64,000 nt of DNA from Pochonia chlamydosporia 170 (lineage: Eukaryota; Ascomycota; Sordariomycetes; Hypocreales; Clavicipitaceae), in the NCBI RefSeq assembly GCF_001653235.2, contig NC_035791.1, forward strand, positions 5,766,001 to 5,830,000, read 5' to 3'. The translations under genes and the position numbers were made by a program. The notes beneath the pieces are model-generated. The model saw nothing but the letters and a program-made list of their open reading frames with translations, did no database searches and was not told where the DNA came from. The stretch's first letter is position 1; the number at the start of each line of letters is the position of its first letter. Below, one piece after another: positions 7,978 through 26,727 of this stretch.

Positions 7978-9240
7978 GTTCGACTCGATTCTCTCTTTGT
8001 CGGTTTGTGTCTCGCTCTCTTTTCTATCGGAATAGCCTGATGTGATTGGATTGAGTGGCAATGTGGCGGCGAGGTCGTCATTTGGCATTACGGTTAGGCT
8101 CCTGTCGGAGAGACTGATCAACCCAATGATGGATTACTTCTCTACTAGTTCACTTGAACTGAAATAGTCTGGGCAAAGAGGTGTAATACGGAGTCTTTGG
8201 GTTGAGACAATATGCATAGCAGAGGCTGCGAACAGATCGCGTTGAGAACTGCTAACTTGTCGGAAGGGGCAGCTTTTATGGTTCTTAGTGTTTGAACGAA
8301 GTTCAGCTGATGTACCAAAAGGGCTCGATGCTGCGCTGGCGAAGTTCATTGTGTAAGGCGAGATCAGCATGTGCCGCGATTTTTTCAAGGTAAAATCGGT
8401 CAGCAATTACCGCAAATAGCTATAGATCGCCCGAACTGATCTGGGGCTAATCATCGGCATAACTCATGACGGACGGCTAAGTCAGGTCTTGTGTTGTTCG
8501 AACCGAAACCGCCCAGCTCATTTATCCTTCTGCGGCATCACATTCACAGCTTGCACCGTAGTTACCCATGCCATGCCATGGATTGGGTCTGAACAGGCGT
8601 TGAGCAAGGACCAACATCCCGCTGTGGTTTGCAACAGACAACCCTGTGCAACGCCCAATATGTTATTATTGGCAAACTTCCTTTTTAACGCCCCGACAAA
8701 GCAAGATGTGTCTACTGTGCTCGCAGATCCTCAGGGGGTGTTTCGACAGTTTTGTTTCGTGGTGTTCTTACCTCAATCATCGAGTTCAACCACAGTACAA
8801 GCTTTGCACAACATTACCAAACTTGGAAACCAAACTTGCTGCTGAGGTCGTGGTAGGAGTACAGATATCTAATGCTTCCTTCAGAGTGTGCTCATCGTCT
8901 CCCATGCCAAAAGGGAAACAGTGTAGAACCACACATTCCTTGGTGCCTCTTCGTCCGCGGACACGACTTTCCGGTCCGTAATTTTCGGTGATTTTGGTCA
9001 AATAAACGTGTTGGCCAATTTGCATTTCTCTCGTTTGTATGATGTCCTGCTAAAACCGGGACGGCGTGTAATTTGGGACAGTCTCAACCCAACTTAACGT
9101 GAATAATGGGTAGAACAGACCTACATTCTAGTCCCTATAATTGGCTCTATGTCTTTTCAGGCAGATTGGATCATTTTGACAAATTTACCTGCCGCGTAAG
9201 GCAATAGTGTTACAGATAAGTGGCAAAAGTGTGTGCCAGC
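7978..9240. other. Intergenic region with faint similarity to DNA upstream of cassette B
   Basis: No gene is called. The stretch at about 8740-8990 aligns by eye, weakly, with 19450-19690 upstream of cassette B: both have CATCGAGTTCAAC preceded by a similar TGGTGT(T/A)C(T/C)TACCT run. This suggests the duplicated unit once reached this far upstream. Frames at 8489-8845 and 8646-8981 look non-coding. Confidence 0.35.
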
Positions 9241-9242
9241 AA

Positions 9243-9635
9243 CGTTATATATCCATCCATCTCCCCGTTTCTTCAGCATCTACCTCCGGCAGGTTTTCTA
9301 CCACTACCAAATCCCAAATTCTTTCTAAAATCAACAACGCACAAAGGCTATACCAGATCGTTTAAGCATCGCGATCTCCAAGAAGTCGCCATTTCTCTCA
9401 TTCAAAGCAGCAGCATCACGCAGCTTTGCCAAGATTCCCATCGTTCGACGACAAGTTCATGCAAGAGTTTGAAACATAAGGCAGGGCACGATTGTAAGCT
9501 ACCATTATCCTTACAAAGATCTGTTTGTTTCCGATCAACCCTCGGCGTTGAAACTCTTCTTTGGAGCTTGACACCTCATACTGTTTCGCAGATTCCTTTC
9601 CACAACGCCAAGCCACCTTATTTCTTGCCATCACC
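9243..9635 (+). promoter_or_regulatory. Cassette E promoter and 5' leader
   Basis: TTATATAT at about 9246 is followed by a leader that shares blocks with the leaders of cassettes A-D. The clearest is TCTCATTCAAAGCAGCA at 9396-9412, about 225 bases before the ATG. It also carries CTTTGCCAAG, as in A. An open frame crossing this region (9220-9717) is on a different frame from the family protein and is not conserved. Confidence 0.55.
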
Positions 9636-9914
9636 ATGTCGGCACGTCACTGAGATTTCACTAAGGAAGACCTCGAGCAGCTGGCGGAGGAGATCAAATC
9701 AAGCATCACACTTCTAGCAAAAAGGTTCAGCTGCACAAATCAGCAAGACATCATCCCATATATCACCAAATGCTCAATCTGGGAGCAAGATATGAATGAT
9801 ATCATGTACCACAGCATCACAACCGGAACCCAACTATGGGTTTCACCCGCCGAGATGAAATTCATTGAGGAAGTCAGAAAAGAACTGAAGTCGGAAGAAT
9901 TTAGTGCTTGGTAA
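9636..9914 (+). pseudogene. Cassette E small protein, nonsense-mutated
   Basis: ATG in good context (ATCACCATG) opens MSARH, then a TGA as codon 6, then 86 sense codons: DFTKEDLEQLAEEIKS ... TGTQLWVSPAEMKFIEEVRKE ... FSAW. The layout matches the other four copies: an acidic first helix, a middle helix with a tryptophan, a short loop with aromatic-x-x-proline (LWVSP), then a charged last helix. Where A and C have W near this point, TGG to TGA would explain the stop. If translated at all, the protein would need stop readthrough or a later start. It is the most leftward copy and lies 5.8 kb from A because the MFS/regulator pair sits between them. Confidence 0.6.
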
Positions 9915-10535
9915 AGAAGAGGAAGGGCTCTACTGAAAGTGGAATGAGAAACAAAAAGAGACAGAGAACGCGAGACTAGAATATGCCTGTTATTCGCGGT
10001 CCCATCGTATGGAAACCTTTTTCTCTTGTCCTTTGTCGCTGTCACTATCAAACAAGCACATGACAATAGCGGTAGGAGTCTAGGTAGTCTCTGGTAGCTA
10101 TAATAGTACACAGCTATAAGCTCCTTGGCCACGGTTCAAATTTCTGTTTTGTCGGCTTAACGAATTTTACTAAATTCTCGGAATCGCCAGTTCAACAAGC
10201 TATCTTGTGTACCACGAGCTACCACAAGATACTTGTTGTAAGCTTACACGGAGACGCATGCGGCAAACCGAGGAACGAGACCCAAAGAGACGACTAAATC
10301 CGTTAAATATATGTCCTCTCAAATCAACGTTAGCTAGAAGATTGATTCGATCATTTGTACACCAAAACGACTGCATCCAAGGCTACATAAGCGACGGATT
10401 TATCTCCTCTGTTATTGTATTTCTTCTTTATTTCCTTTCCTCCTCTCATACTCTCAAGTCTGTTGGGTCTCCCAGTATCAACAAACTAACCGGGTCTCAC
10501 CGGATCACGGCAGTCGCGAAGGAACATTGAAAGCG
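9915..10535. other. Intergenic region downstream of cassette E
   Basis: No gene seen. It should hold the 3' end of copy E and the distal promoter of the MFS gene. The 3' module found after copies B-D was not recognised here. Confidence 0.4.
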
Positions 10536-10565
10536 AAACCCTGCGAGGTGCGAAACCCTCCGCGG
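10536..10565 (+). promoter_or_regulatory. Candidate regulator sites upstream of the MFS gene
   Basis: Two related elements sit side by side about 285-315 bases before the MFS start: AAACCCTGCGAGG at 10536-10548 and AAACCCTCCGCGG at 10553-10565. The second is identical over 13 bases to half of the palindrome before the regulator gene at 13313. CCG/CGG triplets are the usual contacts of Zn2Cys6 proteins, so binding by the neighbouring regulator is a reasonable inference. Confidence 0.5.
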
Positions 10566-10848
10566 TGTGTTCAATGTTCACTCCCAAGGGGAACGGAGCT
10601 ACCCATGATTCGTACCGACTTTCTCTCGGTCCTTTAAATATGTGCCTGCAGCTCCCTGACAAAATATCGTATCTGCGAAAGAATTCAAAGAAAAACTCCC
10701 GTCGACTCTCCGCAAGAAGAGAACCAAGGACAGCCTCATTCTGCTGCGATATTCCCATTTAGCTTTACAAACCACTACCTTTCCATCAGCCTAGAGTACT
10801 AGCGTCGCCAACTACTACATGTACTGTTGACCTTGTCGCGCACCGACA

Positions 10849-12667
10849 ATGGCACAACAAGATGCTGCAGCTTTGACCACGGAGAAGAGCCCAGCAACGT
10901 TTGAAAAAGGCCCGAGATTTTGGGCCATCATTGTTATGCTCTCTCTCATCAGCCTTCTGACGTCTACAGAAGCTACAATCACGTCAACGGTGATGCCATC
11001 ACTTGTTGCTGATCTGAATGGCGGCGGGAACTTCATCTGGATTTCAAACGCATACTTCTTGACCATGTAAGCCTCCCTGGCCACCCCCCATCCCCTGCGC
11101 CAAAACGAAGATACTAAACCTGCGTAGGACGTCCCTGATGCCCATGTATGGCCAGCTTGCAAACGTTTTTGGTCGCCGCTGGCCCCTGATCATAGCTGGG
11201 CTCATGTTTATGCTTGGAAGTGGTATTTGTGGCGCGTAAGTTGTACTTTTCGTCCCATGCGGCAGCGCAAACTATAGTATTTACTGAGTCCTGACGAAAT
11301 ACAGAGCCCAGAGCATGGTCACCATGATTGCCGGTCGAGCTATTCAGGGGATCGGAGCTGGAGGCATCGGCGTTCTCTGCGAGATCGTCATCTGCGACCT
11401 GGTGCCGCTCCGCGAGAGAGGAACCTACATGGGCGCCGTGTTCGGTATGGTGGGCATTGGAGCCGCTCTCGGTCCCTTTTTTGGAGGACTGCTGGTCAGC
11501 TACAGCACCTGGCGCTGGGCTTTCTTCATGAGTCTGCCCATTGGTGGTGTTGCCGTTGTGCTGCTGTTTCTCTTCTTGCGAGTCAAATACGACAAGTCTC
11601 AGACGTTGGCGACCAAGTTCTCGAGCCTCGACTGGATGGGGAACGCTCTCTTTATCAGCGGCACAGTCCCCGTTTTGATTTCGCTTGGCTGGGCAGGAGG
11701 ACAATACCCGTGGTCATCGTATCAGGTACTGGTGCCGTTGATGGTTGGCATCGCCACAATGGGAGCCTTCGTCGTGCTTGAAGGAAATGCACGTCTCACG
11801 CCCAATCCCATGATGCCGTTGTATCTCTTTGGAAATTGCATCACCTCCATTGTCTTTTTTCTCACCTTCCTCCACGGTATTGTCACCATGTGGGCACTAT
11901 ACTTTCTCCCAGTGTACTTCCAGGGCGTGCTGGCAAAGACTGCCTACCAGGCTGGTATCGATCTTCTCCCCACGATTCTCGCACTTCTTCCGGGCGCCAT
12001 CATCGGTGGGCTACTCCTCAGCAAGTTCGGCAAGTACAAGCCCATTCTTATTGTGTGCTTCGCATTAATCGTCCTCGGCTTCGGCGTCTTCACGCTTCTG
12101 GATGAGAAGTCCAGCACCGGCGCCTGGGTAGGCTTCCAGGTGCTCGAGTCTTTCGGCGCAGGGTTTGGCATGGGCGCGATGCTCCCAGCGCTGCTGGCCC
12201 CGTTGACGGACAGGGACACGGCGCTGGCAACGGCGACTTGGGGCTTCATGAGGAGTTTCGGCGTCATGTGGGGAGTCGCCATCGCCGGTACTATCTACAC
12301 CAGCCGGGCTTCGGAGCTTGCGGGTGACGGAGCAATTAGCAGCAATGCAGCGATAGCCGCCCAGTTTGAAGGCGGCGGCGCATACGGGGCGGCCGAGAAG
12401 CACTTTCTCGACTCTCTGTCGGCAGAGACGCGTGCTGAGGTTGTTCATGTGCAGAGTACGTCGCTCCAGAGATCATGGCAGGTTGCCATTGCCTTTGGGG
12501 CAGTGGGATTTCTCGCTGCTGCTATCATGAAGCAGATTCCGCTCAGGAGGGAGAACAACACTGATTTTGGCATGGAGAACAGGAAGAAGCACAACATTGA
12601 AGCCCTTCGAGGAGAGCCAAACAGCGAGAGTGAGACAAACCCAAAAGAGGAGTCAAAAAGTACTTGA
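10849..12667 (+). CDS. MFS efflux transporter, DHA2 (14-helix) type
   Basis: Exons 10849-11066, 11128-11235 and 11305-12667 give 562 residues; both introns (61 and 69 bases) are GT-AG. After a short polar N-terminus, the first helix begins FWAIIVMLSLISLL. Helix-2/3 loop motif A reads GQLANVFGRRWPL. Then GRAIQGIGAGG and LGPFFGGLL match motif C of drug:H+ antiporters. Repeated hydrophobic segments continue to about residue 530, and the tail is charged (RRENNTDFGMENRKKH). The family exports toxic compounds or the cell's own secondary metabolites across the plasma membrane. A Zn2Cys6 gene lies 645 bases downstream and shares a promoter motif, so local control is likely. No biosynthetic backbone gene is near. 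Confidence 0.9.
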
Positions 12668-13312
12668 CACAGGCGTAAGGGGTAGGATAGAGGACTTGAC
12701 AAGTTACAGGCATGAGATTGAGGTTACGAGCAGGCTGGAGAATAAGACAGCGCGAAAATGACATCAGCTGCTACTAGATTGCTGCCTTCATGCCTGCTTA
12801 AAAATGGCATCGTTGCCGGCGCTATGTATATGGTCGAATAGGCATCTAACTTAGAAGGTGAATGAGTAAACCTCCAAGGGAGCCAGCCTAGTATTGAAAT
12901 ACCTCATTTGCGGCTTCAATGTTTGAATGTGCCAATTATTTGCTAGACAGATGTTCCAAGGTTGCATTCAAGAGCATGAATCCCGCACACGACGTTTCGT
13001 TTTCTCGATTTCTTTTTCAATTCAAGGTTTCGCTCCGAATGCCATACTCGACTTACTAACTGTCTGGCCCACCTCACCACATCAGGCTTACATTCTTAAA
13101 CGTATCCAAAACCCTCCGCGGAGGGTTTCTGCTGTTGGCACATCTGGACCTTGTGGTGCCCACATACATTCATCCACCACAACCAACATTGTATTCCATC
13201 ACCATCCCACTTTATCTCATCTCGCGGGACCAAATCCGCAACAACTTTGTCGTAGTTGAGCCTCTTCGCCATCAGAATCATTTCTCCTGCCTCTAAGAGT
13301 ACAATACCAGCA
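12668..13312. other. Intergenic region before the regulator gene
   Basis: It holds the 3' UTR of the MFS gene and the promoter of the regulator at 13313, including the palindrome listed separately. A frame at 12927-13259 shows no family features. Confidence 0.5.
13109..13128. promoter_or_regulatory. Perfect 20-bp palindrome, candidate autoregulatory site
   Basis: The sequence AAACCCTCCG followed by its exact reverse complement CGGAGGGTTT forms a perfect palindrome centred on CCGCGG, 185 bases before the regulator ATG. Its left 13 bases recur upstream of the MFS gene. A dimeric Zn2Cys6 protein would fit such a site. Confidence 0.6.
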
Positions 13313-14638
13313 ATGCTCAAGCCGGCTGTTAGTCTCAGGCGCTCTGCTTGCGACCTGTGCAGAGCAAAGCGAACACGATGCCTTCGCGCCAACGACAGCA
13401 CGGCGCCATGTGCCCGTTGCAACCACCTTGGCGCACGATGTGTCACGGGTGCCCCAGGACTTCCTGGGAGGCCATCCAAGCAGCGTCCCAAGCCCGCCAA
13501 CAGGTCAGGCAGACAAACGTCTGGGAACACGGTGAAGGGCATCTCAGGGCCGGACATGGATCTTGCGGTTCCCAAGTCAACGTCGCCGAGAGAAGTTGAC
13601 ACGTTGGCTCATGAACAACATCCAGACTTCTGGTTACATGTACCACCTGGTGACGGCGGCAGCTCGACCTTCTTCAGCTCCATGTCCCCTTCAATCGACA
13701 TGGACCAAAGCCCGGCCCCGGGCGAAAAAATGCTCTCACTGGTGGACCAGCTCCATGGGCTTTTCGGCGGTGATGATGAACTTAACGCGATGCTTCATAT
13801 GGGCGGCGATGCCAATGCCAACATGGACATGATCGACATGAATATCGATCCACTGCTCAACCATAAAGAGGCTGTTCTGCCCCCGACTCCCACGATACAG
13901 TCAAGGTGCTTCAGCACGGCAGCTTCCCTTGTCGGCTTCCGGGATGAGATAGATGACCGCATTGCTACGATTGACGCTGATTATTCAGATCACAACAAAA
14001 TCCTGCAGCGCTGCAAAGACGAAAACGAAAGCGAAAACGCGGATCGAGATGTCGAGAATCCGGCTGCATTGCTCCTCACATGCACCAACAAGTTCATCCA
14101 AATCATCCAGAACCTCACACCGTCCGATGCGGCTCAGCTGCAGACACAGACAGAGGATGCGCTCACCACCGAGCTTGTGCTCCTGGCTCTGTCCGGTTAC
14201 CTTGCGTTGATGAGGCTCTTTGATTCTCTGTTCCACCGCATCTACAAATACCTTTGCGAGGTGCCGCGGGAGACGTACGAGTCTATCAAGGTCAAGGCGG
14301 TGCTCCGCATCGGCGGCTTCGCTTCGCTGCAGGATATGCCGCTGAAGACGTACGCCGTTGGAATCCTTGATGCCATCCAATGCCAGGTGAAAGTCCTAGA
14401 GCGCTGCATGGGGATTCCCGCAGAATACTGCCTCTCCGGTGACGCGGCTGCTTCATCTACCGGGACCGGGACCGGCCCACGGATACTCTGCCGGCCAGAC
14501 CAGATACGGCTGTTCTGGACGGTTGTGGCCCAGGAGGATGTCAAGTCGCGGAGGGGTACCAAGTCGTATGTAGAGTCGATAAGAGCCAGTATCAAGGAAT
14601 CAATGGCTTTTCTCGACGACCATGGGCGGAGCAGTTAG
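13313..14638 (+). CDS. Zn2Cys6 transcription factor, aflR-like
   Basis: Single exon, 441 residues from the ATG at 13313 (the frame is open from 13256, adding 19 residues). The DNA-binding cluster is at residues 13-39 with spacing C-x2-C-x6-C-x9-C-x2-C-x6-C (SACDLCRAKRTRC then APCARCNHLGARC). It is followed by the basic, proline-rich linker GLPGRPSKQRPKP usual for AflR-type regulators. The middle is acidic and methionine-rich (residues about 120-190). The C-terminal part has helical stretches (LVLLALSGYLALMRLFDSLF, then AVGILDAIQCQVKVLER) like the AflR regulatory domain. This group controls secondary-metabolite or transport genes. The adjacent efflux pump and the shared CCGCGG motif point to the pump as a target. 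Confidence 0.86.
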   Translation: MLKPAVSLRRSACDLCRAKRTRCLRANDSTAPCARCNHLGARCVTGAPGLPGRPSKQRPKPANRSGRQTSGNTVKGISGPDMDLAVPKSTSPREVDTLAHEQHPDFWLHVPPGDGGSSTFFSSMSPSIDMDQSPAPGEKMLSLVDQLHGLFGGDDELNAMLHMGGDANANMDMIDMNIDPLLNHKEAVLPPTPTIQSRCFSTAASLVGFRDEIDDRIATIDADYSDHNKILQRCKDENESENADRDVENPAALLLTCTNKFIQIIQNLTPSDAAQLQTQTEDALTTELVLLALSGYLALMRLFDSLFHRIYKYLCEVPRETYESIKVKAVLRIGGFASLQDMPLKTYAVGILDAIQCQVKVLERCMGIPAEYCLSGDAAASSTGTGTGPRILCRPDQIRLFWTVVAQEDVKSRRGTKSYVESIRASIKESMAFLDDHGRSS

Positions 14639-15230
14639 GTGAAAATTAATTATATACCGTCCATGGCCTCGTAACTCGCTTTATGATTTGGTATGCCTCC
14701 ACCTGTCCAACTTGTCTAGTCGTACGTGGGATACAGCTTTTGGGTTGAAACCCCCTTGCGCTGCAAAAGCCACATGCAATCAATCACAGATCCTCGATAA
14801 TATAAAGCCCACATCTGTAGGGGATGTGTTATTGGACAATTTTTGTCGTTTAGCATTTCCATGACAGGTGCCACAGACTTTTGGGCAGCAGATCAAACCG
14901 GAAACACGCTCTTACCCGAGCCGAGATTCACATTGCGTTTACTTTCAGTTCCATTTGCCTCCTTAAAATACCACAATACTTCATTTCGTGATTCTTTTCT
15001 AACCGGGCTGTTGCCAACTTCTATTCACTTTCACATGTATGAGTTCCTATTGAGGTCAGGACGGGGCGTTCGAACAGGGGCAGTGTTGAGATAAACTAGA
15101 CAAGAACAAGGGCCAGAATAGGCTTGAATCGCAACGACAACAATGAGCTTGTTCGGACAAGAAATACCTTGATCTATTGCTTAGTACAGTTTGTGTACAA
15201 TTTGGTAGCGGAAACCATGCTCACAGAACA
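14639..15230. other. Intergenic region before cassette A
   Basis: No gene seen. The distal promoter of cassette A lies at its right end. The GATAACTCGGCATGAACAAG-type block found before B, C and D is present only as a faint trace near 15090-15110. Confidence 0.4.
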
Positions 15231-15482
15231 TATATAAAGCTTCCCTACTTGCACGTCCCATCAACATCTACAACCCAAAACCTCCCACCGCAGCGAAATT
15301 TCAACCACTCGCGCAAACAAAATCACGCAGACCTGATTGGCGCCACTTTTTTACTGCCATCACTCCGAATCTTATCGTTCCTCTCATTCAAAGCAGCATC
15401 CCCTAGGTCTGCCAAGCTTCCACCTGAGACCTTTTACGGCTTCCTTTCTATTACGCCCAGAGCCCAACATCCTGCCATTACA
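15231..15482 (+). promoter_or_regulatory. Cassette A promoter and 5' leader
   Basis: TATATAAA at 15231-15238 is followed by the family leader. Blocks shared with other copies include CCACCGCAGC at 15287-15296, CAACCACTCGCG just after it, and TCTCATTCAAAGCAGCATCC at 15382-15401. The reading frame of the gene is open upstream to 15177, but the other copies are not open there, so this is taken as untranslated leader. Confidence 0.68.
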
Positions 15483-15791
15483 ATGGCCCCCAAAGCAGGA
15501 AAGCGCAACTGGACGGCTGGAGATATCGTGGATGTGTTGGCTGAGCTACGTGAGAAACGTGATCTCATGATGGAAAAATGTCCCTCACAGGCATGTCAAA
15601 TCGGGACGTGCGAGGACCTTATTAAGGCATTGAATGTTATTAACCCTAACTGGGATGAAAAAGACAAAAAAGGAAATTTGCTCTTGGAGCAGTCACAGAG
15701 CGATTTCTTACACATGGCTAAATATGGTATTAAGTCTTTTGAAAAGACGTTAAAAGAGGCGAAGAAAAAGAGCAAGAAATATGCTCTCTGA
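15483..15791 (+). CDS. Cassette A small charged helical protein (102 aa)
   Basis: ATG in context TACAATGGCC opens a 102-residue protein. It starts basic (MAPKAGKRNW), then an acidic/basic helix (DIVDVLAELREKRDLMMEK), a CPSQACQIGTC segment, a middle helix, the turn NPNWDEKDKKG, and a strongly basic last helix (KTLKEAKKKSKKYAL). No signal peptide, membrane helix or known domain was found. Relationship to B-E rests on the shared leader, equal length, the same start region and the same order of helices; pairwise protein identity is low. Lysine richness at the C-terminus could mean nuclear location or nucleic-acid contact, but nothing proves it. A transposon lies 125 bases after the stop. Confidence 0.68.
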   Translation: MAPKAGKRNWTAGDIVDVLAELREKRDLMMEKCPSQACQIGTCEDLIKALNVINPNWDEKDKKGNLLLEQSQSDFLHMAKYGIKSFEKTLKEAKKKSKKYAL

Positions 15792-15915
15792 CACGTTCAC
15801 AACCGCGTGGTACGAAAGCACCTCTACCCTTGCTTTTGTTCGGGAACCAGGAGTCATATTCGGATTGACGGCCAGACTATTCTAGTAGGAATAATAGATT
15901 GGATAGTCTAATATA

Positions 15916-18405
15916 ACGTGGGTGCATAGCGAGCCGGCTAGCATAGCGAGCCGGCCACCCTAACCTAGTTACATGCAAAGATTATATAAAACTACAACCA
16001 CAACATAGGAAATCAATTAATCTTTACTGCTATCCTCTTTATTTAATATTTCTATATTAATCTAATAAGTTTGCGCGTTATAACTAGACTTACTGCACAC
16101 ACTATATTGCTAACCCTTTATCTTATTCTAAGGCTTATAACCTCTAGTTTGGCAATCTTCTTATTTTACCTGCTCTTCTATATTATTCTAGTCTTAAAAT
16201 GCCTATCTCTTAGTAATAGTTATACTACTGCCTTAATATAAACGTGTTTTTTTAGCCCTATGCTGCTTGCTTAGTATTATATTTACCTCTTAAAGTTACT
16301 TAACTTTAGCCTTTAAGAGAGCTATCTTATATATAAGTCTATATATCCCCTTTATAAATTAATCTATAGCGGATAAAATTAATATTAGTAAGCTTTCCTA
16401 GTAGCAGCTTATTTACCTTTTAATATAATTAGTTTATAAAGCTGCCTTAGTTAGGTTATTTAGGGTCTTTAGAACCTATAGATTTAGTAGCTTAAGTGCA
16501 GCTTTAACTAGCAATAGAGTTTATAGCTTTACATCTAGCTATATTAATACACTTTACAGATTAAACAGAATAAGCCCTATACCTCTAAATGCTTCTTAGA
16601 TATTTTTTTCTATTATTATAGCTTTAAATGCAGCGTAAAACGCGGGTAGAAAGTCTAACTTTGTAATGTGTGTAATCTTTGCTCTTATTAACCCTTTAAT
16701 TTCTAGGCTATATGCCTTCTTTAGTAGCCTAAAATACCTAATATCTAATAGTTAGAGAATATTATGTGGGTGGAATTGCTCACACCTGGTGGCTTAACAA
16801 GGGATAGGAAAAAGGGACTTGGTGTTTTTATTTAATCTTGTAGCTACTGCACAGATAAAAGGGAGGTTCTGCCCCCTCTAGCTAGACTATACACAATTAA
16901 CAGACTTAACCGCGATTTTCTTAACTAGAGCTATTTACTTAATGTATTTAATGCTTATTTACTAAATCCCTTATTAACTAAGAGCGCCTTTCTTTGCCAT
17001 AGGTTACACCTTATAGAGGTATACTACCAAATAATATTGCTAAGGTCTTTTGGAAAGACTAAAGCAATTAAGGATTAAATACTATTTAATCCAAGCAAGC
17101 GGGAGACTTTTGACCACCCGGCCTGAAAGCGCCTTTCTTTGCTACGTGCTGCACCTTATAGAGGCACACCACCAAATAACATTAGGGAAGTCTTCTAGGA
17201 AGACTAAAGCAATTAAGGATTAAATACCATTTAATCTAGGCAATTAGAAGGATTCTAACTACTTAAACTAAAGGGAAGTAATAATCTAGACTAAATTGCT
17301 AATAAGTTGCGTGTAAGTGCGGTATTTTGCAGGGCGCTCTGAGCTCTTAGGTGTGTTTATTTTAGGCCAACAAAATATGTAATAAATAAGCTAGCATATA
17401 GAGCGTAATAATCTTATAGTTCTTACAGAATACCTTAAATTCTATTAAATGGTAGCTTTTATGCCTATCTATAATTAGAAGATAGTATGTACCTTAGGTT
17501 TGCGGTTTAGTATGCTTTTTAAAGTATTAAATCTATAGCCTTCTTATTTATAGTCTAGCTATTAGGAGTTATAGAGATAACCTAATCCTTTGGTAGGGTA
17601 CTATCTTTATACTAGTTTGTAAGGTGATACTGCCCTGTAATAATAATAAATAGTGGGATAGCCTAGCCGCAAGAATTAATAGACTAGATTACTAAAACCT
17701 ATTCTCTATTATCTAGCTAGGCTAAAGTTAGCTTGCTATATCTATCTAAGCTTGTAATAACTATAGTAGTTAAGATTATGCCTATTATAAAGCTAGCCTT
17801 ATTAAAGTTATAGAAATCCTTATTAAGAATGCTATATTTTATAACTATATTATATATAAGCTTAAACTAAGGCTTAATTATCTTTAGATCTTTATATAAG
17901 GCTCTCTAATAGTTATATCTATACGTAAAACGCATAGTAAGCTCTTAGTAGCGCTTAATAAAGTTTAAAGCCTATTATAGTCTAATAGAAGGCGCATTAT
18001 AATTAGTAAGCAGTTAATTTGCTATATCTTATACACTATAAAGCTAGAAAGGGAAAGATTAGGCATCTAGGTTAAGAATATATTAAATAATTATTAACTC
18101 CTCTAGATCTGTGAGTTTTTAAGAATTTAGCATTATATCACGTTATGTAGTAACTCTATTTAGGCGATCGCCAAGTAGGCTATAGCTAACCCTATAGGCT
18201 TTTGCAGTAGCTTAAATGCTTAATTCTAAATCTCTCTGTATAGCCTTAATAGCTAAGATTATTTGGCTCTCTTTATTTAAGAATTCTATAATTTTTGGTG
18301 GAGAAATCTAAAGTTAAAGGAGGATAGTTATATTTCTGTAGTGGGGTGGCCGGCTTGGTATGCTGGCCGGCTCGCTATGCTGGCCGGCTCGCTATGCACC
18401 CACGT
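15916..18405 (-). mobile_element. Pogo/Fot1-like DNA transposon, RIP-degenerate
   Basis: The 2,490-base element is bounded by inverted repeats of about 41 bases starting ACGTGGGTGCATAGCGAGCC at 15916 and ending with its complement at 18405, flanked on both sides by TA, the Tc1/mariner target duplication. Each end carries tandem GCATAGCGAGCCGGC subrepeats (two left, three right). Read on the minus strand from about 18300 down to 17340, the interior gives broken but recognisable pogo-family transposase: MRFTYRYNY-stop-RALYKDLKIIKP, FDEAGF-like text, TLPKD-stop-VISITPNS and LLIIDRHKSYHLIEF (the last holds a catalytic-type Asp). Stops are mostly TAG/TAA where CAG/CAA are expected, the RIP pattern. 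It cannot encode an active enzyme. Confidence 0.85.
16983..17243. repeat. Tandem pair of ~116-bp repeats inside the transposon
   Basis: Copies at about 16983-17098 and 17128-17243 share AGCGCCTTTCTTTGC, CACCTTATAGAGG and GACTAAAGCAATTAAGGATT, with a period of 145 bases. The left copy has TATACTACC where the right has CACACCACC, so it carries more C-to-T changes at CpA. The nearby text (from about 16765) is also less eroded than the transposase, hinting at a nested later insertion. Confidence 0.7.
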
Positions 18406-18407
18406 TA

Positions 18408-19792
18408 GTCATAATAACTCTTGATACTAATTTCTCGTAAGCTCCCACTCAATGTTTACATACTATTCGCCGTGATGCTTCACATAAATTGTATTACCCT
18501 ATTTGACATATAATGACTGCGTTGAATTAGCGAATGTAAGTACTTAATATCTGCCGCAATAGTTCTGTGAAACATCATCCTGAACCTACCCTTTTCCCAC
18601 AACAGAAAAGATCGACAGGGGGTACTAAATATTAAACTTGGAGAGGAGGATGACATTACTCAGTCTCCGAATCCACCTGATCGTCACCACGGAGGTTCAA
18701 TCTTCCACCATGGCCTTCCTAGGGGTAATAAGCCAGGTAGTTTCCATCCACACGCTCTCGGTACAAGAAGGCGAAGCGATAGGTGAGGTCACGAGCTGCA
18801 AAACTTCACCAGGGCAAAATACGATCATACAAAACCGGCAAAGTTGCAAATTACGCGCGAAATAGGAAATGGAACTCCAATTAAATAAACAGGCACTGCC
18901 ATACTATTACTCTCCTTGCGGTCTAGTGCTTCTGCGAATTTGTTGGTTGATGCGGGTTGAGATCATCAGTATTCCATAAGCTTGAAGTACAAAGATATAA
19001 GCTGTTTACAATGCGTTGGGTGAGCCTTCCGCTTTTATTCCAAAATGTGGCTTGTCTGATATCAATTCAGCATGTTCCACGATTTCAAGGCAACGTATGT
19101 CGGCAACTACCACACATAGCGGGCATCGTCAGAACTGATTTTGACCTGGTCAGCAGCAAGAGAGGCGATAAACAGTCAAGAAACTTATTATGCTGCATGA
19201 AATCAAACAAAGTGAAGAATGTGTACTGTGCTTTCATGCGGCATCCCCGTTGCACCTTGTACTTCATTAAATCGAGGCGCGGATCATACCTGAACAAGTC
19301 GTTGACCAGGGTGAACAACCACGCACGGCCCGCAATGGACACCACGTTCAAAGCTAAGTTTGTCCATGTTAATAGATGTATCTGCCAAACCCCAGCATCA
19401 TTATCTTGTTCAGCAACTCAGACAGGTATGCTTTATTCGCCGCCCCTCTGAACCTGTTTTGCCAGTCTTTCTGCATGGTGTACCTACCTTCATCGTCGAG
19501 TTCAACATCCCGCGAGCTGTGAAATACCGTCACAGCATTTTTATGACCAACAGGTTACTGAAGTCGGAGTACAAGTACGGAGGTCTGGTGCTGCTTTCGA
19601 TGTGTGTTCTTGCCCACCCCGACGAGGAGAGCCGTGCTAGACCTATCTATGCCCTGGAGCTCGATTTGTTCACATTGAGATCCCCGGTGCTCCATTCTTT
19701 GAATTGCTCTGATCGAGCTGTGGGTCAAGTTGTGTTTGCTCTCGCATGAAATTTGTTTCCGTTGACGCTAGGAAGGGGTGTAACGGTGTAAG
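18408..19792. other. Region between transposon and cassette B
   Basis: The first 150 bases seem to continue the 3' flank of cassette A after the transposon break. No confident gene follows. Frames at 18638-18865 and 18957-19451 are unsupported. The possible ORF at 19360-19749 is listed separately. Confidence 0.4.
19360..19749 (+). other. Possible ORF (129 codons) upstream of cassette B
   Basis: An open frame with fairly protein-like text (HGVPTFIVEFNIPRAVKYRH, LKSEYKYGGLVLLSMCVLAHPDEE). A weakly similar stretch at 8740-8990 translates with a matching start (VLFRGVLTSIIEFN) but hits a stop. It could be a decayed upstream gene of the ancestral duplicated unit. No domain recognised. Confidence 0.25.
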
Positions 19793-20364
19793 GATAACTC
19801 AGCCTGAACAAGCGACAAAACAGATGCAAATCGCGATAGATACAGTTTACTTTATGCTTATTCATACAAGTTTTGCTCTCTTAACACGCCGCTATGCGAC
19901 GTAGTGCAGCTTTTGTGTGAAACAATAGTATAGAGCAGTGCCAGCCACAAATATATAAATCTTCTCTATTTCCATGTCTAGTCGTATCAACAGTATCAAC
20001 AGTATCAACACTAACATCTTAACTCTTTCCACCGCAGCCAACTTTCAACAACCCGCGAGAAAAGAAGAGTGACACAGAAGCTAATCCACATCACTTATCT
20101 ACAACTGTCATCTCAGGCTCGGCATTTATCTCATCTAAAGCGGCATCCCCTGGCTATAGTTAACCTCTTGCGATTTTAACGCGGTGCATGCGAGAGTTTA
20201 AACCTAAAGGCAACAGAGAATCACAAGTAAGTATAACTTCTCTAGTCTCTGCTTTATCTTTATTAAGTCTTTAATATTAAAGCTGCCTTTCTAGGGCCCT
20301 ACTGCGAGATTTTGTACGCATTTTATTTAATTAACGCCACACTTTTTATTATCTTAACATCACA
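19793..20364 (+). promoter_or_regulatory. Cassette B promoter, leader and 5'-UTR intron
   Basis: A block GATAACTCAGCCTGAACAAG at 19793-19812 matches the same place before C and D. TATATAAA follows at 19952-19959, then the leader with CTATTTCCATGTC, CCACCGCAGCCAACTTTCAAC and TCTCATCTAAAGCGGCATCC (20129-20148). A GTAAGT...TTTCTAG segment at 20227-20294 looks like a 68-base intron in the leader; cassette D has one at the same place, and both are followed by GGGCCCTA. Confidence 0.7.
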
Positions 20365-20667
20365 ATGCCAGAAGCACCCCCTACTTATACGCGGAAGGAA
20401 CTTACGTTATTGCTGGCCGAGTTCGAAGCGATCGAACAAAAACTAGAAAACGACGCTCCTCATCAGAATGAAAAAATCAGGACAAAGCTTCAAAAAGACA
20501 CCTTACGCGCCAGAGACTGGGCGAAAAATGTTAGGGATGTAATTGATAAACATCAACACAACGCACAGGATACTTTGATAATGCCCCAAAAAGAAATGGA
20601 TGTCATAAGTTGGGCAAAGTACTATCGTGACCTTTTGAAAAGAGACTGGGGGCAGTTTTTGAATTAA
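20365..20667 (+). CDS. Cassette B small charged helical protein (100 aa)
   Basis: ATG in context ATCACAATG opens MPEAPPTYTRKELTLLLAEF. Three or four amphipathic, highly charged helices follow: residues 10-30, 38-65 (with RARDWAKNVRDVIDKH), and 77-98 (KEMDVISWAKYYRDLLKRDW). They are linked by a loop with TLIMP, which lines up with LWVSP in E, HLLP in C and MWTMI in D. It is the copy most like D: both start MPE, have (T/R)RxE early, and end with a D(V/A).xxAKxYRD motif. No signal peptide, membrane segment or known domain. Role unknown; soluble and intracellular by composition. The B and D leaders look more alike than their coding parts. Confidence 0.7.
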   Translation: MPEAPPTYTRKELTLLLAEFEAIEQKLENDAPHQNEKIRTKLQKDTLRARDWAKNVRDVIDKHQHNAQDTLIMPQKEMDVISWAKYYRDLLKRDWGQFLN

Positions 20668-21330
20668 GACTAGGAGGCAAAAGTGATTCTGTGATCGGCC
20701 ATAGATATCCAAATGCCCGCCGTACGAATCATTCTTTCATCTGTTCTCTTCTAGGGCAAGGCAGTCGCTGTACGGGTGGCGGGAAATTATCCTGGGAAGA
20801 TAATAGTTTAGGTAGCCTCATTCAGTCACAATATCATCAGCTACACGCTCCTCGATAGCATCTCAAGTTCCCACACAACCTTTAACGTACCTTATCTGTA
20901 ATACTTTGCGTATAGTAGCTTACCCTGTTATTAGGCAGTAATACTGCGTCTCAAACTAGCGATACGTGATTAATAGCTGCGGAAATGCCTGCTTGGAATG
21001 CAATTATTAGGCCACCGCTCTTGGTCCCGTGGTGCAATGGTACGGTACGACAATCAACTCGAACCACTCCTCGGTACACGTCGGGTAATACACTAGGCAG
21101 GTCGCAAAATTTCCAAGGGATAGGCATCTGTTTTAACAAGTTTCTGGGTCAACCTGGTTATCCTGGGATGTTCTCGGCTTTTCAGGGTCAACGAAAAGTT
21201 TGGTTCATGCGGTTTAACAACCCTAAAAAAACCTATTCTCGCTTTTCGCAATTTCCTAAGGCACATGGGTATCTTAGCATTCATTTCTTTGCTAGCGAAG
21301 TAAAATGTTGCGTAAAATGCCTAGCTATAT
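20668..21330 (+). repeat. Conserved 3' module of cassette B
   Basis: After the stop the DNA still resembles that after D: GGCCATAGATATCCAAATG (20696) against CGCCATGGATATTTAAACG, then ATCTCAAGTTCCCAC (20859) with ATACTTTGCGTA (20900), and later CGGTACACGTCGGGTAATAC with CAAAATTTCCAAG and GCATCTGTT (to about 21133). The duplicated unit thus covers at least 450 bases past the gene. No protein frame is conserved in it. Confidence 0.6.
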
Positions 21331-21565
21331 GATGTGGAAAGAGTTGTGATGTGAAACTACTAGTCCTTGTTGGCATTAAACAAACACCAAAAAGCTTGTA
21401 TCAAAAATATCAGGGACATCTATTAATTCTAGACATTCAGTCGATATGTATGCTCATTACCTAGAGGCTGTCGGGAGGCTTTATTCCTTACAAACATGGC
21501 AATATTACTACAAGGCTACATTACTGTAGAATACCCTCAACTGGCCTGCTTGGAACCCACCAAAA

Positions 21566-21625
21566 TTTCATCAACCAAGTACACTCATAATCTTCCCCAG
21601 TGCACCAAACAGCTGACGATTTGCT
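21566..21625 (-). pseudogene. Fragment of an amidase 3' end
   Basis: Read on the minus strand, this gives QLFGALGKIMSVLG-stop, against QLFGALREIISVLG-stop at the C-terminus of the intact amidase at 26728-28395. CAACCAAGTACACTCATAAT and CCAAACAGCTGA lie in the same order in both. Upstream of QLFG the similarity decays quickly, with a TGA in frame. The piece was probably carried along in a segmental duplication. Confidence 0.72.
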
Positions 21626-21756
21626 CACGTCGTGACTACTGGTACTTCGTTTCATGACTTGTGCTGAGCAAGTTCTGGGCCAATTTCTATTCACCCTCGC
21701 ATGAAATACATTCCCAATAGGGCTAGAACAAAGGTGTGTGATCTGGGAAGTGTTAA

Positions 21757-22271
21757 GACAACTCGGCATAAACAAGACGCAAATTAGATTCAAATCACAA
21801 TAAATCTAATTAACTTTGTGCTTGTTTACATAGACTTACCCTATTAATCTACTTATCTGTGGTTTAATGCGGGTTATGAGTGAATTAATATGAAGGTGAA
21901 GTGTCAGCTGCTAATATATAAAGCTTCTCTATTTCCACCTTTAATTTAACGCCCACATCTCAACTCTTCCCATCGCAGCAAACTCCCAACCACCCGCAAA
22001 AGCAACCCACCTTTAAACGCTGATCAGCATCGCTTACTTACAACTATCATCTCAAACTCGCCAATTATCTCATCCAAGGCAGCATCACCTGGGCTTGGCC
22101 AAGCTTTTGTAACTTTGATCAAGTGGAAGAGAGTTTGGATCAGAAATCAACGGTCTCTGGTTATATCCAATACGTTTACTATATTAAAACTATCACTTTG
22201 AAATTTTTATCTGAAGCTCTTGACGGCTGCCTTTTCCAAAAAAACCTACAATCTATCGTCTTATCATCGCA
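21757..22271 (+). promoter_or_regulatory. Cassette C promoter and 5' leader
   Basis: GACAACTCGGCATAAACAAG at 21757-21776, TATATAAA at 21915-21922, then CTTCTCTATTTCCACC, CATCGCAGCAAACTCCCAACC and TCTCATCCAAGGCAGCATC (22068-22086). Spacing from the B TATA box to the C TATA box is 1,963 bases, close to the unit length. The leader intron seen in B and D is not obvious here. Confidence 0.68.
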
Positions 22272-22565
22272 ATGGCCTCTGCAAACTACTGGGGGCCTGA
22301 CGAGATCAAGTGTCTGACCAAGGCTCTGAGAAACACCCTAACGCTTCTGGAGAAAGACTGCCCTGGAAGAGTATGGGATATTAGGGGATGCCAACGCCAT
22401 TTATTCAGCATTGAAGAAACGGCGTTTGAATATATACAGGACGAAAACGGAGGATGGCACTTACTCCCCGAACATGGTGACTTGTTAAATCAGGCTGATG
22501 CTGACCTTGCACGTTTTAGAGTGACCTTGGAGATGGAACAGAAAAAAAAAACGAGGGAACAGTAA
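22272..22565 (+). CDS. Cassette C small charged helical protein (97 aa)
   Basis: ATG in context TCGCAATGGCC opens MASANYWGPDEIKCLTKALR. It then has TLTLLEKDCPGRVWDIRGCQ, a middle helix (SIEETAFEYIQDENGG), the loop WHLLPEHG, and a last helix ending in a lysine run (MEQKKKTREQ). The DCP turn after the first helix matches KCP in A and DAP in B; the WHLLP loop matches the equivalent proline loop of the others. It has more tryptophan and cysteine than B and D. No targeting signal or domain recognised. Function unknown; family membership is well supported by the leader and 3' flank, less by the protein itself. Confidence 0.66.
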   Translation: MASANYWGPDEIKCLTKALRNTLTLLEKDCPGRVWDIRGCQRHLFSIEETAFEYIQDENGGWHLLPEHGDLLNQADADLARFRVTLEMEQKKKTREQ

Positions 22566-23121
22566 TTCCGTGATACGTCCTTAATATTGAAGAGCAACGC
22601 TTACTCTTTGCCGAGACGACGGGGAATGGGATGATGGGAGCCATGGTAGGATTGATGAGGAAGTTGATTTAGCGAAGGTGATAGCCTAGGTAGTCCTAGA
22701 TCGTTAAAATAGTATGGGATACAAGCCTCTTGATGATATCTCAAGTTCTCGCTCAAGTCTTGCATATCATAACCACCATGATGCCCTTACGCAGAGTGAC
22801 TACCCCAGTAATCGAATATTGTGGTGCTTCGAATGGCAACCCACAGTTGTTACAGGTGATACTCGGGATGAGACAATTTGTCAACGAGAGTAGGTTTAAT
22901 ATTGCTTGCTTTTTCCAACCTTCCTTACAAAGGACCTTTCTTTCTAACGGAAATATGGTTTAATATTTAATGCTTTTGTTAAACCTTTCTTCCTTTAGCT
23001 TTCCCTTCTAATATTAGAAAAATCCCTTAAATTAGTCTATAAAAGAAGGCTATTTTCCTCTTCTTTCTATTAGTTAGGCAGATAGTTAGTTAAGTAGTTT
23101 AATTTAATTAGTTATTTCCTT
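22566..23121. other. 3' flank of cassette C, then AT-rich DNA
   Basis: TTGATGATATCTCAAGTTC at 22730-22748 and GGTGCTTCGAATGGCAAC at 22824-22841 correspond to parts of the 3' modules of B and D. From about 22900 the sequence turns AT-rich. No gene. Confidence 0.5.
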
Positions 23122-23123
23122 TA

Positions 23124-23559
23124 ACGTGGGTGCATAGCGAGCCGGCCAGCATAGCGAGCCGCCCACTCGCACTTACACCTAAAAGGTCCTTTTTATATCC
23201 CTGTAAAAAACGCTAATTATACCTAATAATAGCTGCTTTCTTAATATAAGATATTTAACTACTAATTTAGCCTAATTATAGAATTTCTAGTGTCTAGGTT
23301 AACTAGTTCTTAAGATATTTAGAAAAAACCTAAAACTACAAAGTATAAATAAGAAATTTTAGACTTCTTAATAACTTGCTACCCTATATACTAGAAAATC
23401 TAGATTTAGGTTTATTTAGTAGTTAAATACCTTATATTAAATTTATAGCTATTTTTAGCTATAAATGCGATTTTTTGCAGGGATATCTAAAAGTGTATTT
23501 TGTATAGGAATTCTAAGTGGCCGGCTCGCTATGCTGGCCGGCTCGCTATGCACCCACGT
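23124..23559. mobile_element. Foldback MITE with pogo-element termini
   Basis: The 436-base element has the same ~43-base inverted ends as the 2.5-kb transposon (one visible mismatch between ends), flanked by TA. The inverted repetition does not stop at the ends. Inner blocks such as ATATCCCTG-AAAAAACGC and TATTTAACTACTAA recur as reverse complements, so the two arms of about 215 bases pair along nearly their whole length. No coding capacity. Its interior is not obviously derived from the large element, so it was probably mobilised in trans. Confidence 0.82.
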
Positions 23560-23601
23560 TAATCTCTTAATTCTATAGCTATTTCTTATAATAATTATAA
23601 G

Positions 23602-23802
23602 TGTTATGGTCTAGCCCGATTGGGCCAACGCGGGTGCTAGCCGCAGCCATCTGGGAGGAACGCTCCCAGTCCCCTTTGACCAGTAAGGCAAAAGGGTACG
23701 AATTGAACTAGTCCCTCGTGACTGTTCAATCTAGCACTATACAGGCTCTCCTGGTTGCGCGCACACTGAAGACTAGACTGGGCTTAAGCCCAGACCTTTA
23801 CA
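23602..23802 (+). mobile_element. Probable solo LTR
   Basis: A 201-base GC-richer block begins TGTTATGGTCTAGCCCGATT and ends TTTACA, the TG...CA form of an LTR, and is flanked by TAAG on both sides (ATAAG before it; ACATAAG at the right junction). It contains no ORF. No second LTR or polymerase gene was seen, so it reads as a solo LTR left by recombination, or as the 5' LTR of an element eroded beyond recognition on its right. Confidence 0.5.
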
Positions 23803-23806
23803 TAAG

Positions 23807-24676
23807 CCTAGTTTATAGCTAAATTCCACTATAAATTTAGAACTATTATAACTATCTTTAAAGTCTTCCTCTAAAGAAAGGCACCTATTTCTATTATAGA
23901 AAATATTATTCTTTCTATATTTAGAGTTACCCTTAAGAGACCAAATAACTAGAAGCCTTAGATTTAGAAAGTTAAAAAATTAGCTACTAACTAAGAAATT
24001 TAGAAATACCTTAACCTAAAGGTTTCTTTTAAATCTAACCTTATCTGCCTAAAGAAACCTAAAGTCTCTAATATCTAAGAATCTACTATAGAGCCTTCTA
24101 ATTTAACTATAGAGAAAACTTAGAACCTAAAGTATTAGTTTAAAAGATATTATAATTAAATAAGAATCTTTAAGAAAAGGTAAGTAGTAATATTAGATAT
24201 CTAAAGATATATCCTAAGAATTATAAGAGAATTCTAGGAAATTATAGCTTTTAAAACTAATATTCTAAAATAGCTAATTCTTTTATAATTCTATCTTTAG
24301 GTATCTTCTTAGGTTAGAAAAAGGGAAATCCTAACCTAATATTAGTTAATTCTAAGGTTTCCTAATTATACTAAAATAGAGACTTAGATTTTAAGCTAGT
24401 AAAAAGTTATTAAGAAAGCTTATTAAATTAGACTGCCTAATACCTAGGAAATTTGCCTAACTATAGATTCTCCAATAGTTATTACTCTAATTAGCTCTAC
24501 CTTTTAAAATACTAGAATAATAAAATCTAGTTAAAAAGTTAGAGCTAGAAATAGCTATATTAGCTATACTTAGCTTCTAAAAACCTACTTTAAATTAGGC
24601 TATATTTTTGCATTACATGGAAATTAAACTTAGAACCTTAAGAAATTACTATTAATAGTAACTGCCTATAAGTACA
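23807..24676. other. AT-rich, RIP-eroded block
   Basis: Dense in TA, TAG and TAA in every frame and poor in C and G. It lacks genes and probably represents a heavily mutated transposon, perhaps the body of the element whose LTR lies to its left. The family cannot be named. Confidence 0.55.
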
Positions 24677-24905
24677 AAAATACAAAAATACAATACAATG
24701 TATTTTGTATTTTTTTAAAAATCTATGTATTGTATTGTATTTTGTATTGTATTGTATTTTGTATTGTATTGTATTTTGTATTGTATTGTATTTTGTATTG
24801 TATTGTATTTTGTATTGTATTGTATTTTGTATTGTATTGTATTTTGTATTTCAATACAATACAATACAAATACAATACAAAAATACATTTTGTATTGTAT
24901 TTTTC
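24677..24905. repeat. 17-bp minisatellite with inverted arms
   Basis: Seven head-to-tail copies of GTATTGTATTGTATTTT fill 24727-24845. Short runs of the opposite strand (CAATACAATACAATACAAAT) follow at once, and AATACAAAAATACAATACAA precedes it, so the locus can fold into a long hairpin. Open frames through it are an effect of the repeat lacking stops. Confidence 0.85.
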
Positions 24906-24956
24906 GGCAATGCTCTGGTGGCCAGGACGGAAATGTGTTATCCAGAATAGTATTAG

Positions 24957-25508
24957 GATAACTCGGCATGAACAAGAGGCAAAATTGATATAATCGCAAC
25001 TAATACAATTAGTTTTATGACTATTTATATAAGTCTTACTCTCTTAACACGTTTTACCTGTGTTGCCTTGCTCTTTCTGTGTGAATTAATAGTAAAGAGT
25101 AGTGTTAGCCACGAGTATATAAACCTTCTCTATTTCCACGTCTCGTCATATTAACACCCACACCTTACCTTTTCTCAACCGCAGCCAACTTTCAACCGCT
25201 CGCGAAAACAAACGTCAGAAAAAAAGCGGATCTACATTAATTGTCTACAGCTATCATCTAAAGCTCGCTATTTGTCTCATCTAAAGCATTATCCCCTAGA
25301 CTTGGTTACCATTTTGCGACTCTGACGCAGCGCATGCGGGATTTTAAATCTAAAGGTAAAGAAGACCCCAGGTGAGTGTAACTTTGCTAGTCTCTAGTTT
25401 ATCTCTAATTAGTTATAAATACTAAAGCTACATTTTAGGGCCCTAACACGAGACTTTACACGGATTCCTGTCGATTAACGCCACACAATCTATTATCCTG
25501 CTATCACT
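24957..25508 (+). promoter_or_regulatory. Cassette D promoter, leader and 5'-UTR intron
   Basis: GATAACTCGGCATGAACAAG at 24957-24976, TATATAAA at 25116-25123, then CTTCTCTATTTCCACGTC, CAACCGCAGCCAACTTTCAAC and TCTCATCTAAAGCATTATCC (25275-25294). A GTGAGT...TTTTAG segment at 25372-25438 (67 bases) lies where B has its leader intron, and both are followed by GGGCCCTA and a CGCCACAC(A/T) block before the start. Confidence 0.7.
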
Positions 25509-25814
25509 ATGCCAGAATTACTGCCTCCCTTCAGACGAGAGGAAGCTCAGTTGCTGTTCACTCAGCATCAAGTTATCTCTGAAAAACTACGTCAGAAATT
25601 GCGTCAGAACAAAGGTATTAAATCCGTCGAGAAAAAACTCAAAGATGATATCTCTCGCGGCGTGGAGTATGGAGCAGGTTTTCTGGATGTATTGTATGTA
25701 CCTAGAAACGATACACGGCAAATGTGGACGATGATCTCGGACAAGAGATCTTTCATACGTGACGCTAAGAAATATAGAGACGATATGATAACAAAATGGA
25801 AGATTAAAATATAA
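25509..25814 (+). CDS. Cassette D small charged helical protein (101 aa)
   Basis: ATG in context ATCACTATG opens MPELLPPFRREEAQLLFTQH. Basic helices follow (SEKLRQKLRQNKGIKSVEKK), then a central segment GAGFLDVLYVP, a loop with MWTMI, and a C-terminal helix FIRDAKKYRDDMITKWKIKI that matches the WAKYYRDLLKRDW end of B. Strongly basic, no signal peptide, no membrane segment, no known domain. It is the closest relative of copy B in this array. The minisatellite ends about 50 bases before its upstream conserved block, so promoter activity could be affected by the repeat (inference). Confidence 0.7.
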   Translation: MPELLPPFRREEAQLLFTQHQVISEKLRQKLRQNKGIKSVEKKLKDDISRGVEYGAGFLDVLYVPRNDTRQMWTMISDKRSFIRDAKKYRDDMITKWKIKI

Positions 25815-26727
25815 GGGGGTAAAGGTGATTCCGTAATCCGCCATGGATATTTAAACGTTCGGGGTACGGAACTATTCCTACCCTTGTTTCGACGGATGTC
25901 TGTCGTTATAGGACTGACGGACAAAAACCGCGATAACTATACTGTGTCATGTAGTCCTATATATTTATAATATTATTAGCTACTAGTTTGTTGATAATAT
26001 CTCAAGTTCCCACTGCACCATAAACGCTCCTAAACTGTGATACTTTGCGTAGAGTTGATTTCCATGGCATTGGGTAGTGTTGCTGCTTCACACAGCAACT
26101 CATAACTACGGACATACTGGCTATGGATAGGGTTATTGATCTAACTTTGTTTAGTCTGGCGGTCGAATGGTAAGTTACACGGCAACAGATATCGAACTCA
26201 AGCCGCTCCGCCGTACACGACACGTCGCGTAGTAAGCTGACCAAGTCGACAAAATTCTAAGCGATACGTACCTGTTAGAAGACATTTTCGGCTTTGAAGT
26301 GTTTTGCACCAAATGTGTTTCTTATTATGCAAAGTTGAACAGCATTTTAATTCTCATATCATGATAACTCTACGGCGATACACGCGTCCCCATGGGCAGT
26401 GGTCAGGCCATGTGAGAATCATACGAAACATTACGTTGCCACCGAATTGAGCTGCTTTATAGCACATCATACATCTGTTGTGGACAGAATTATGCTAGAA
26501 ACGTAGGGTTATCTGGCATAAAGCTGATGCAGGGTTTGCATCAGGTGGTGGTGGGCGGTCATCCTGTTCGGGCTTTGCCGAATGATATATGCTTATTATT
26601 TGTAGTTTTTTTTTTCAGAAAATTTGCTTCTTTGCTTACAGAGTAGTATTTACTACGAGAATTCGCCAACCTAGATTGCCGCCCGCTGGTCCACTCGGGC
26701 TCCTCCAAGATTACGATGTTGAAATGA
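25815..26727. other. 3' module of cassette D and right edge of the array
   Basis: Matches to the B module are ATCTCAAGTTCCCAC (25995), ATACTTTGCGTAGAG (26040), CCGTACACGACACGTCGCG (26211) and ACAAAATTCTAAGCGATACG (26250). The similarity ends near 26290. The remaining DNA up to the amidase stop shows no gene. Confidence 0.5.

Follow-up and report, generated by a model that had tools for sequence, protein, structure and literature searches.

A single-locus array of strongly diverged small-protein genes behind related leaders in Pochonia chlamydosporia

Several rapidly evolving gene families offer points of comparison for the array of small-protein genes that we describe here from the fungus Pochonia chlamydosporia strain 170. 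The wtf genes of Schizosaccharomyces evolve rapidly, include some decayed copies, lie near transposons and have not been found outside their genus; wtf4 encodes proteins of 337-366 amino acids (aa) from six exons, with six predicted membrane segments and proven drive (PMC5478261). The HYP effectors of potato cyst nematodes join conserved flanks to a variable core and match no Pfam domain; they carry a signal peptide, their flanks are coding and ~95% identical, and, in the many alleles of their single-gene loci, the variable part is built from rearranged motifs (PMC11228951). Fungal orphan secreted effectors, too, are fast-evolving and without relatives (PMC10462633, PMC7462860). By contrast, the array proteins are ~100 aa long, soluble and, as judged by hydropathy only, without membrane segments or a hydrophobic N-terminus; in the array it is non-coding flanks that are conserved and tandem copies that differ in the core, the closest pair, B and D, sharing 53% of nucleotides over the coding part. 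By analogy, wtf and HYP appear to follow a logic similar to that of the array, and those of their defining features that were examined fail in it.

The window analysed comprises 64,000 bases at 5.77-5.83 Mb on a 6.60 Mb contig of the strain 170 genome (44,215,803 bases in 49 contigs, to which all genome-wide searches refer). It contains five cassettes, designated E, A, B, C and D, all on the same strand, in each of which a TATA-like site lies 252-413 bases 5' of an ATG (Table 1). Our favoured explanation, held with about even confidence, is that the cassettes represent a local orphan family of diversified soluble proteins under one promoter type, which would bind partners in the service of a biological conflict.

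The related promoter and leader that the earlier note proposed before each gene are well founded. Leader similarity exceeded all 300 dinucleotide shuffles in 10 of 10 pairs, with z values from 6.6 (A-E) to 85 (B-D), and the leaders are alignable over up to ~400 bases, that of A with a gap of ~130 columns. A 17-base element within them, TCTCATYYAARGCRNYA, has five exact matches in 44.2 Mb, one per cassette (at 101, 204, 234, 236 and 240 bases from the ATG in A, C, D, B and E, respectively), with none on the reverse strand and none for the control. When one mismatch is allowed, the element matches 41 sites (control, 14), and 36 of these lie beyond the cassettes; at the 25 outside sites examined, leader matches other than the element and a few adjacent bases are short and at chance level (the best, of 24 bases, has E 0.017), and no protein match falls below E 0.12. 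The TATA offsets reproduce the 1,963-base spacing from B to C reported previously. The leaders of B and D each contain an intron-like GT-AG stretch; the two are identical at 51 of 67 positions, and their divergence does not exceed that of the leader. Upstream ATGs were also observed at 20188 (B), 25334 (D) and 9459 (E), that is, 177, 175 and 177 bases before the start; they open short, related frames beginning M-R/Q-E/D-F, and A and C have no ATG there.

Behind these leaders, the five start codons are all present where they had been placed, and the frames of A to D are intact. Of the five genes of ~92-102 codons listed in the earlier note, four are thus open from the ATG; the note overlooked a TGA at codon 6 of E, and because of this in-frame stop E is probably a broken copy. 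Similarly, the tandem family of five holds as a contiguous array for A to D, outside which E is separated by an MFS transporter gene and a gene with a Zn-cluster-like product. A 97-codon open frame has a probability of ~0.005 at the local stop frequency, and four such frames occupy one and the same position relative to the aligned leaders; moreover, a codon-use score ranks the annotated frame best of six in five of five copies (E included), by small margins. In neutral simulations, stop-free frames per branch numbered 20-30 of 1000 at d 0.45, 41-51 at d 0.30 and 150-172 at d 0.15. Frame length, codon use and the single-locus leader element together indicate that these are not chance frames inside a known repeat, an outcome that would have undone the earlier proposal. 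Conservation is higher in the leader than in the open reading frames (ORFs), as might be expected if function resided in the leader and 3' module, acting as a regulatory element or non-coding RNA, and the ORFs were incidental; the shared position of the open frames, their codon use and the protein homology within B-D and A-C speak against this explanation, which we regard as very improbable. An Rfam search gave no family at the gathering score, a result that also counts against it and with which novel RNAs are still compatible, and no tRNA was detected.

Among the proteins, B with D and A with C form clear homologue pairs (z values in Table 1; each 0 of 1000 shuffles), with ~25-29% identity within pairs. 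Searches by tblastn within the window link B and D at E 7e-7, A to C at 0.006 and C to A at 0.11. When the proteins A to D were searched against the whole genome with an E threshold of 10, each matched itself and, at a single further site, its partner (E 0.003-0.004 for B-D, and 0.4-0.7 for A-C, which alone is not significant), and the E frame (9654-9911) matched itself only. What was seen of the lineage specificity suggested in the earlier note is confinement of the family to one locus of this genome, at limited search sensitivity. DNA searches recovered no other cassette with the A leader, only D with the C leader, and only itself with the E region; as such searches miss known members, their silence elsewhere in the genome is weak evidence. 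No copies indicative of a dispersed transposon were found: the exact element occurs at the five cassettes only, on one strand of one locus, and DNA searches, which overlook known members, recovered members of the array only. As far as the sequences indicate, family links beyond B-D and A-C would rest mainly on the leader. The earlier remark that no domain is recognisable in these proteins agrees with a Pfam scan of all five that gave nothing above cut-off (the best match, at E 0.017, scored 15.1 bits where 25 are required) and an NCBIfam scan that gave nothing up to E 0.1; in the mainly open-access literature, no description of the family stood among the matches listed.

The mode of divergence is best seen in B and D, for which nucleotide identity is 306/409 in the leader, falls past the start codon, and recovers directly behind the stop (182/284). 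Maximum-likelihood ratios of nonsynonymous to synonymous divergence (dN/dS) are 1.06 for B-D (dS 0.84, dN 0.89) and 0.85 for A-C (dS 1.23, dN 1.04), and NG86 counting gives dS 0.90 and dN 0.71 for B-D. Amino-acid replacement and silent change thus proceed at about the same rate, and the leader evolves more slowly than either, such that the rapid divergence previously attributed to the family holds relative to the leader (B-D nonsynonymous sites, p 9e-8) and not as an elevated dN/dS. The hydrophobic class of residues is kept slightly beyond stop-free neutral simulations, which reached the observed level in 28 and 30 of 500 runs for B-D and in 51 and 37 of 500 for A-C; in the latter pair, core hydrophobics are also kept better than neutral (11 and 16 of 500). 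In summary, the four frames have been kept, and the fold probably as well.

With regard to that fold, AlphaFold predicts for both B (from an alignment of all five proteins) and A (from an alignment of A and C only) a three-helix bundle with the same helix order and a short beta element preceding helix 3; the predicted local distance difference test (pLDDT) and template-modelling (pTM) scores are given in Table 1. Together with the leader and protein comparisons, these models support the earlier characterisation of the products as small, soluble, helical and diverged proteins with a common leader. Whole-protein helical moments were reached by 37 (D), 78 (B), 109 (E), 142 (C) and 209 (A) of 2000 shuffles. 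Hydropathy, the only measure applied here, and read behind the stop in E, revealed no hydrophobic N-terminus or signal peptide (highest 9-residue value near the N-terminus 0.84-1.70) and no membrane segments (highest 9-residue mean 0.84-1.71 in the five proteins). Bacterial three-helix bundles such as Fap1-NRa (3rgu, 2kub) and SCIN (2qff, 4h6h) served for comparison; identity to 3rgu is 9% and the best Foldseek match has E 0.44, a level that any helical bundle could reach. Other candidates were set aside: A0A516LC26, an unnamed protein whose model matches B best among those of viruses (E 0.007, TM-score 0.73, 9% identity), because helical bundles match widely; NRC4 and PezA, which were unspecific as fold-comparison matches; and, as chance or coiled-coil likeness, the best PDB sequence matches of B alone (E 0.94), of the five-protein profile (mitochondrial ribosomal protein S15, E 0.021 over 64 profile positions) and of the A and C profile (GCN4-tropomyosin, 0.22).

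A number of results weigh against the favoured explanation. Positive selection on the family is possible; no sign of it was found in B-D or A-C, where dN/dS is ~1 and the value 1 was not rejected. Synonymous sites in B-D are also more diverged than the leader (p 4e-5), and constraint on, or homogenisation of, the leader may therefore produce part of the contrast, which is weak when the 3' flank serves as the reference for the coding part (p 0.025 and 0.019). Retention of core hydrophobics in B-D does not surpass that in neutral simulations (reached by 86 and 147 of 500), and helical moments inside the predicted B and A helices are no better than those of shuffles (411 and 486 of 2000). The two structure alignments have rows A and C in common, helical bundles are easy to predict, and the fold comparison yields no function. 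Finally, similarity across the pairs is absent or weak (z -0.7 for B-C, -1.1 for D-C, -1.0 for D-A and 3.2 for B-A), and E is broken. The main rival is a weakly constrained orphan family that is being lost, with frames open by chance or through slight use, near-neutral change, and a leader that lags behind. Such a family would be expected to show a dN/dS close to 1, an amino-acid pattern hardly above stop-free neutral simulation (as in B-D), a copy stopped at codon 6 and transposons inserted into the array, yet four of five frames are intact despite a divergence at which this is unlikely without selection, the A-C core is conserved beyond neutral expectation, and B and A are predicted with the same order of helices. 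On balance, we consider this rival unlikely.

Under the favoured explanation of an orphan family of binding proteins, five paralogous units would have arisen by repeated tandem duplication of a ~2 kb block that comprised promoter, leader, ~100-codon ORF and 3' module and lay beside an amidase gene. Four units would encode intact soluble proteins, with B and A predicted to adopt the same kind of three-helix bundle, and the retained control region makes joint expression of the copies probable. Each protein may then act as a small binding module, and the set may have diversified so as to recognise partners that differ from one another or change. The conflict would take place within the fungus or in its surroundings and could involve rival strains, mobile elements, viruses, prey or host. 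When small, soluble proteins without a match to known families have multiplied locally behind one type of promoter and diverged strongly, they are usually read as binding proteins of this type.

More specific roles are less probable. Small effector proteins usually change fast, and the array could by this general pattern encode effector-like proteins, with non-classical release, aimed at nematode eggs or plant roots. P. chlamydosporia infects nematode eggs and females (PMC5773674), which lends this role some plausibility; it is improbable in view of the missing N-terminal hydrophobic stretch. A toxin-antidote or meiotic-drive family, in which copies under one promoter type have distinct poison or antidote specificity, would suit small, tandem, fast-diverging and domainless genes with one broken copy and transposons nearby, a pattern reminiscent of wtf; the wtf4 proteins are larger, with six exons and six membrane segments (PMC5478261), hydropathy showed no such segments in the array proteins, and we judge this alternative quite improbable. 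Returning to the diversified binding set, its most ambitious form would be a fungal recognition locus of new design, in which intracellular three-helix bundles with diversifying surfaces and no known domain are expressed as a tandem set from one conserved promoter-leader and serve as a repertoire for self/non-self recognition, for defence against parasites or as toxins and antidotes; this form is speculative and doubtful.

The history of the array can be followed in part through its 3' modules and insertions (Table 1). Shuffle comparison identified a 3' module common to B, C and D, as noted before; A has one as well, split by a terminal inverted repeat (TIR) transposon. With both sides joined, the A module matches those of B, C and D at z 20.5, 9.7 and 6.7, each with 0 of 300 shuffles. 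The E module is weak (of 300 shuffles, 2 reached the score for B-E, 0 for C-E, 21 for D-E and 36 for A-E). The most alike leader and 3' parts are those of B and D. The fragment of the amidase 3' end between B and C is taken, from sequence likeness, as a trace of duplication, and would be expected if the B and D units were copied from one unit carrying a piece of its neighbour. A 52-base stretch ahead of E (8739-8790) matches one in the A-B spacer (19455-19506; 77%, E 4e-6), perhaps as the remnant of another duplicated piece.

The TIR transposon and a shorter element resembling a miniature inverted-repeat transposable element (MITE) have 45-49 arm bases in common, with GCATAGCGAGCCGGC repeated within the arm. 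The first 23 arm bases have three matches per direction genome-wide, including a third arm pair at C1:7350604-7351239, consistent with three TIR elements of this type in the genome. Between C and D, positions 23565-24660 are very AT-rich (GC 0.24 in the 1-kb window 24001-25000) and perhaps represent a decayed transposon, which would explain much of the longer C-D spacing; a long ATTGTATTTTGT-type simple repeat lies upstream of the D promoter at 24680-24905. None of six ORFs from spacers or upstream regions reached a Pfam cut-off; the best match, at E 0.063, was Ly-6-like. The window genes tested are ordinary fungal genes, encoding a secretory lipase, MFS transporters, an amidase, and isochorismatase-like, DUF2264, HET and GH130 proteins; the Zn-cluster match of a further neighbour falls slightly below the Pfam cut-off. 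The HET-domain gene (59238-61379; Pfam PF06985, E 4.4e-34) lies ~33 kb from the array.

Table 1. Features of the array, in window positions.
Feature	Positions	Strand	Details or evidence
E leader	9243..9635	+	TATA-like site 392 bases before ATG; element 9396-9412; leader alignment, shuffles
E reading frame, probably broken	9636..9914	+	TGA at codon 6 (9651-9653); open from 9654 for 86 codons to stop 9912-9914
A leader	15231..15482	+	TATA ~15231; element 15382-15398; leader alignment, shuffles
A gene, 102 aa	15483..15791	+	predicted three-helix bundle; pLDDT 80.5, pTM 0.68
A 3' module, start	15792..15913	+	shuffle comparison
TIR transposon inside A 3' module	15914..18407		49-base arms, 94% complementary, TA at both ends; AT-rich
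A 3' module, remainder	18408..18620	+	end approximate; shuffle comparison
B leader	19952..20364	+	element 20129-20145; intron-like GT-AG 20227-20294; leader alignment
B gene, 100 aa	20365..20667	+	predicted three-helix bundle; pLDDT 88.7, pTM 0.79
B 3' module	20668..20960	+	end approximate; shuffle comparison
Amidase 3'-end fragment between B and C	21570..21616		85% over 47 bases, E 2.6e-9
C leader	21915..22271	+	element 22068-22084; leader alignment
C gene, 97 aa	22272..22565	+	A homologue, z 7.0
C 3' module	22566..22860	+	end approximate; shuffle comparison
Short MITE-like TIR element between C and D	23121..23562		arms as in 15914-18407
D leader	25116..25508	+	element 25275-25291; intron-like GT-AG 25372-25438; leader alignment
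D gene, 101 aa	25509..25814	+	B homologue, z 9.4
D 3' module	25815..26107	+	end approximate; shuffle comparison
Amidase gene	26728..28395	-	3' end adjoins D; copy of that end between B and C

Orphan genes are common and seldom come with an internal control. In this array, the common promoter and leader allow protein change to be gauged against its own flanks, at one locus and in five copies, and one deletion could take out A to D. If the genes do form a recognition set, a biocontrol fungus would have yielded a new fungal conflict system; if they do not, the array would provide a clean case of small-protein drift in which frame and promoter are retained.

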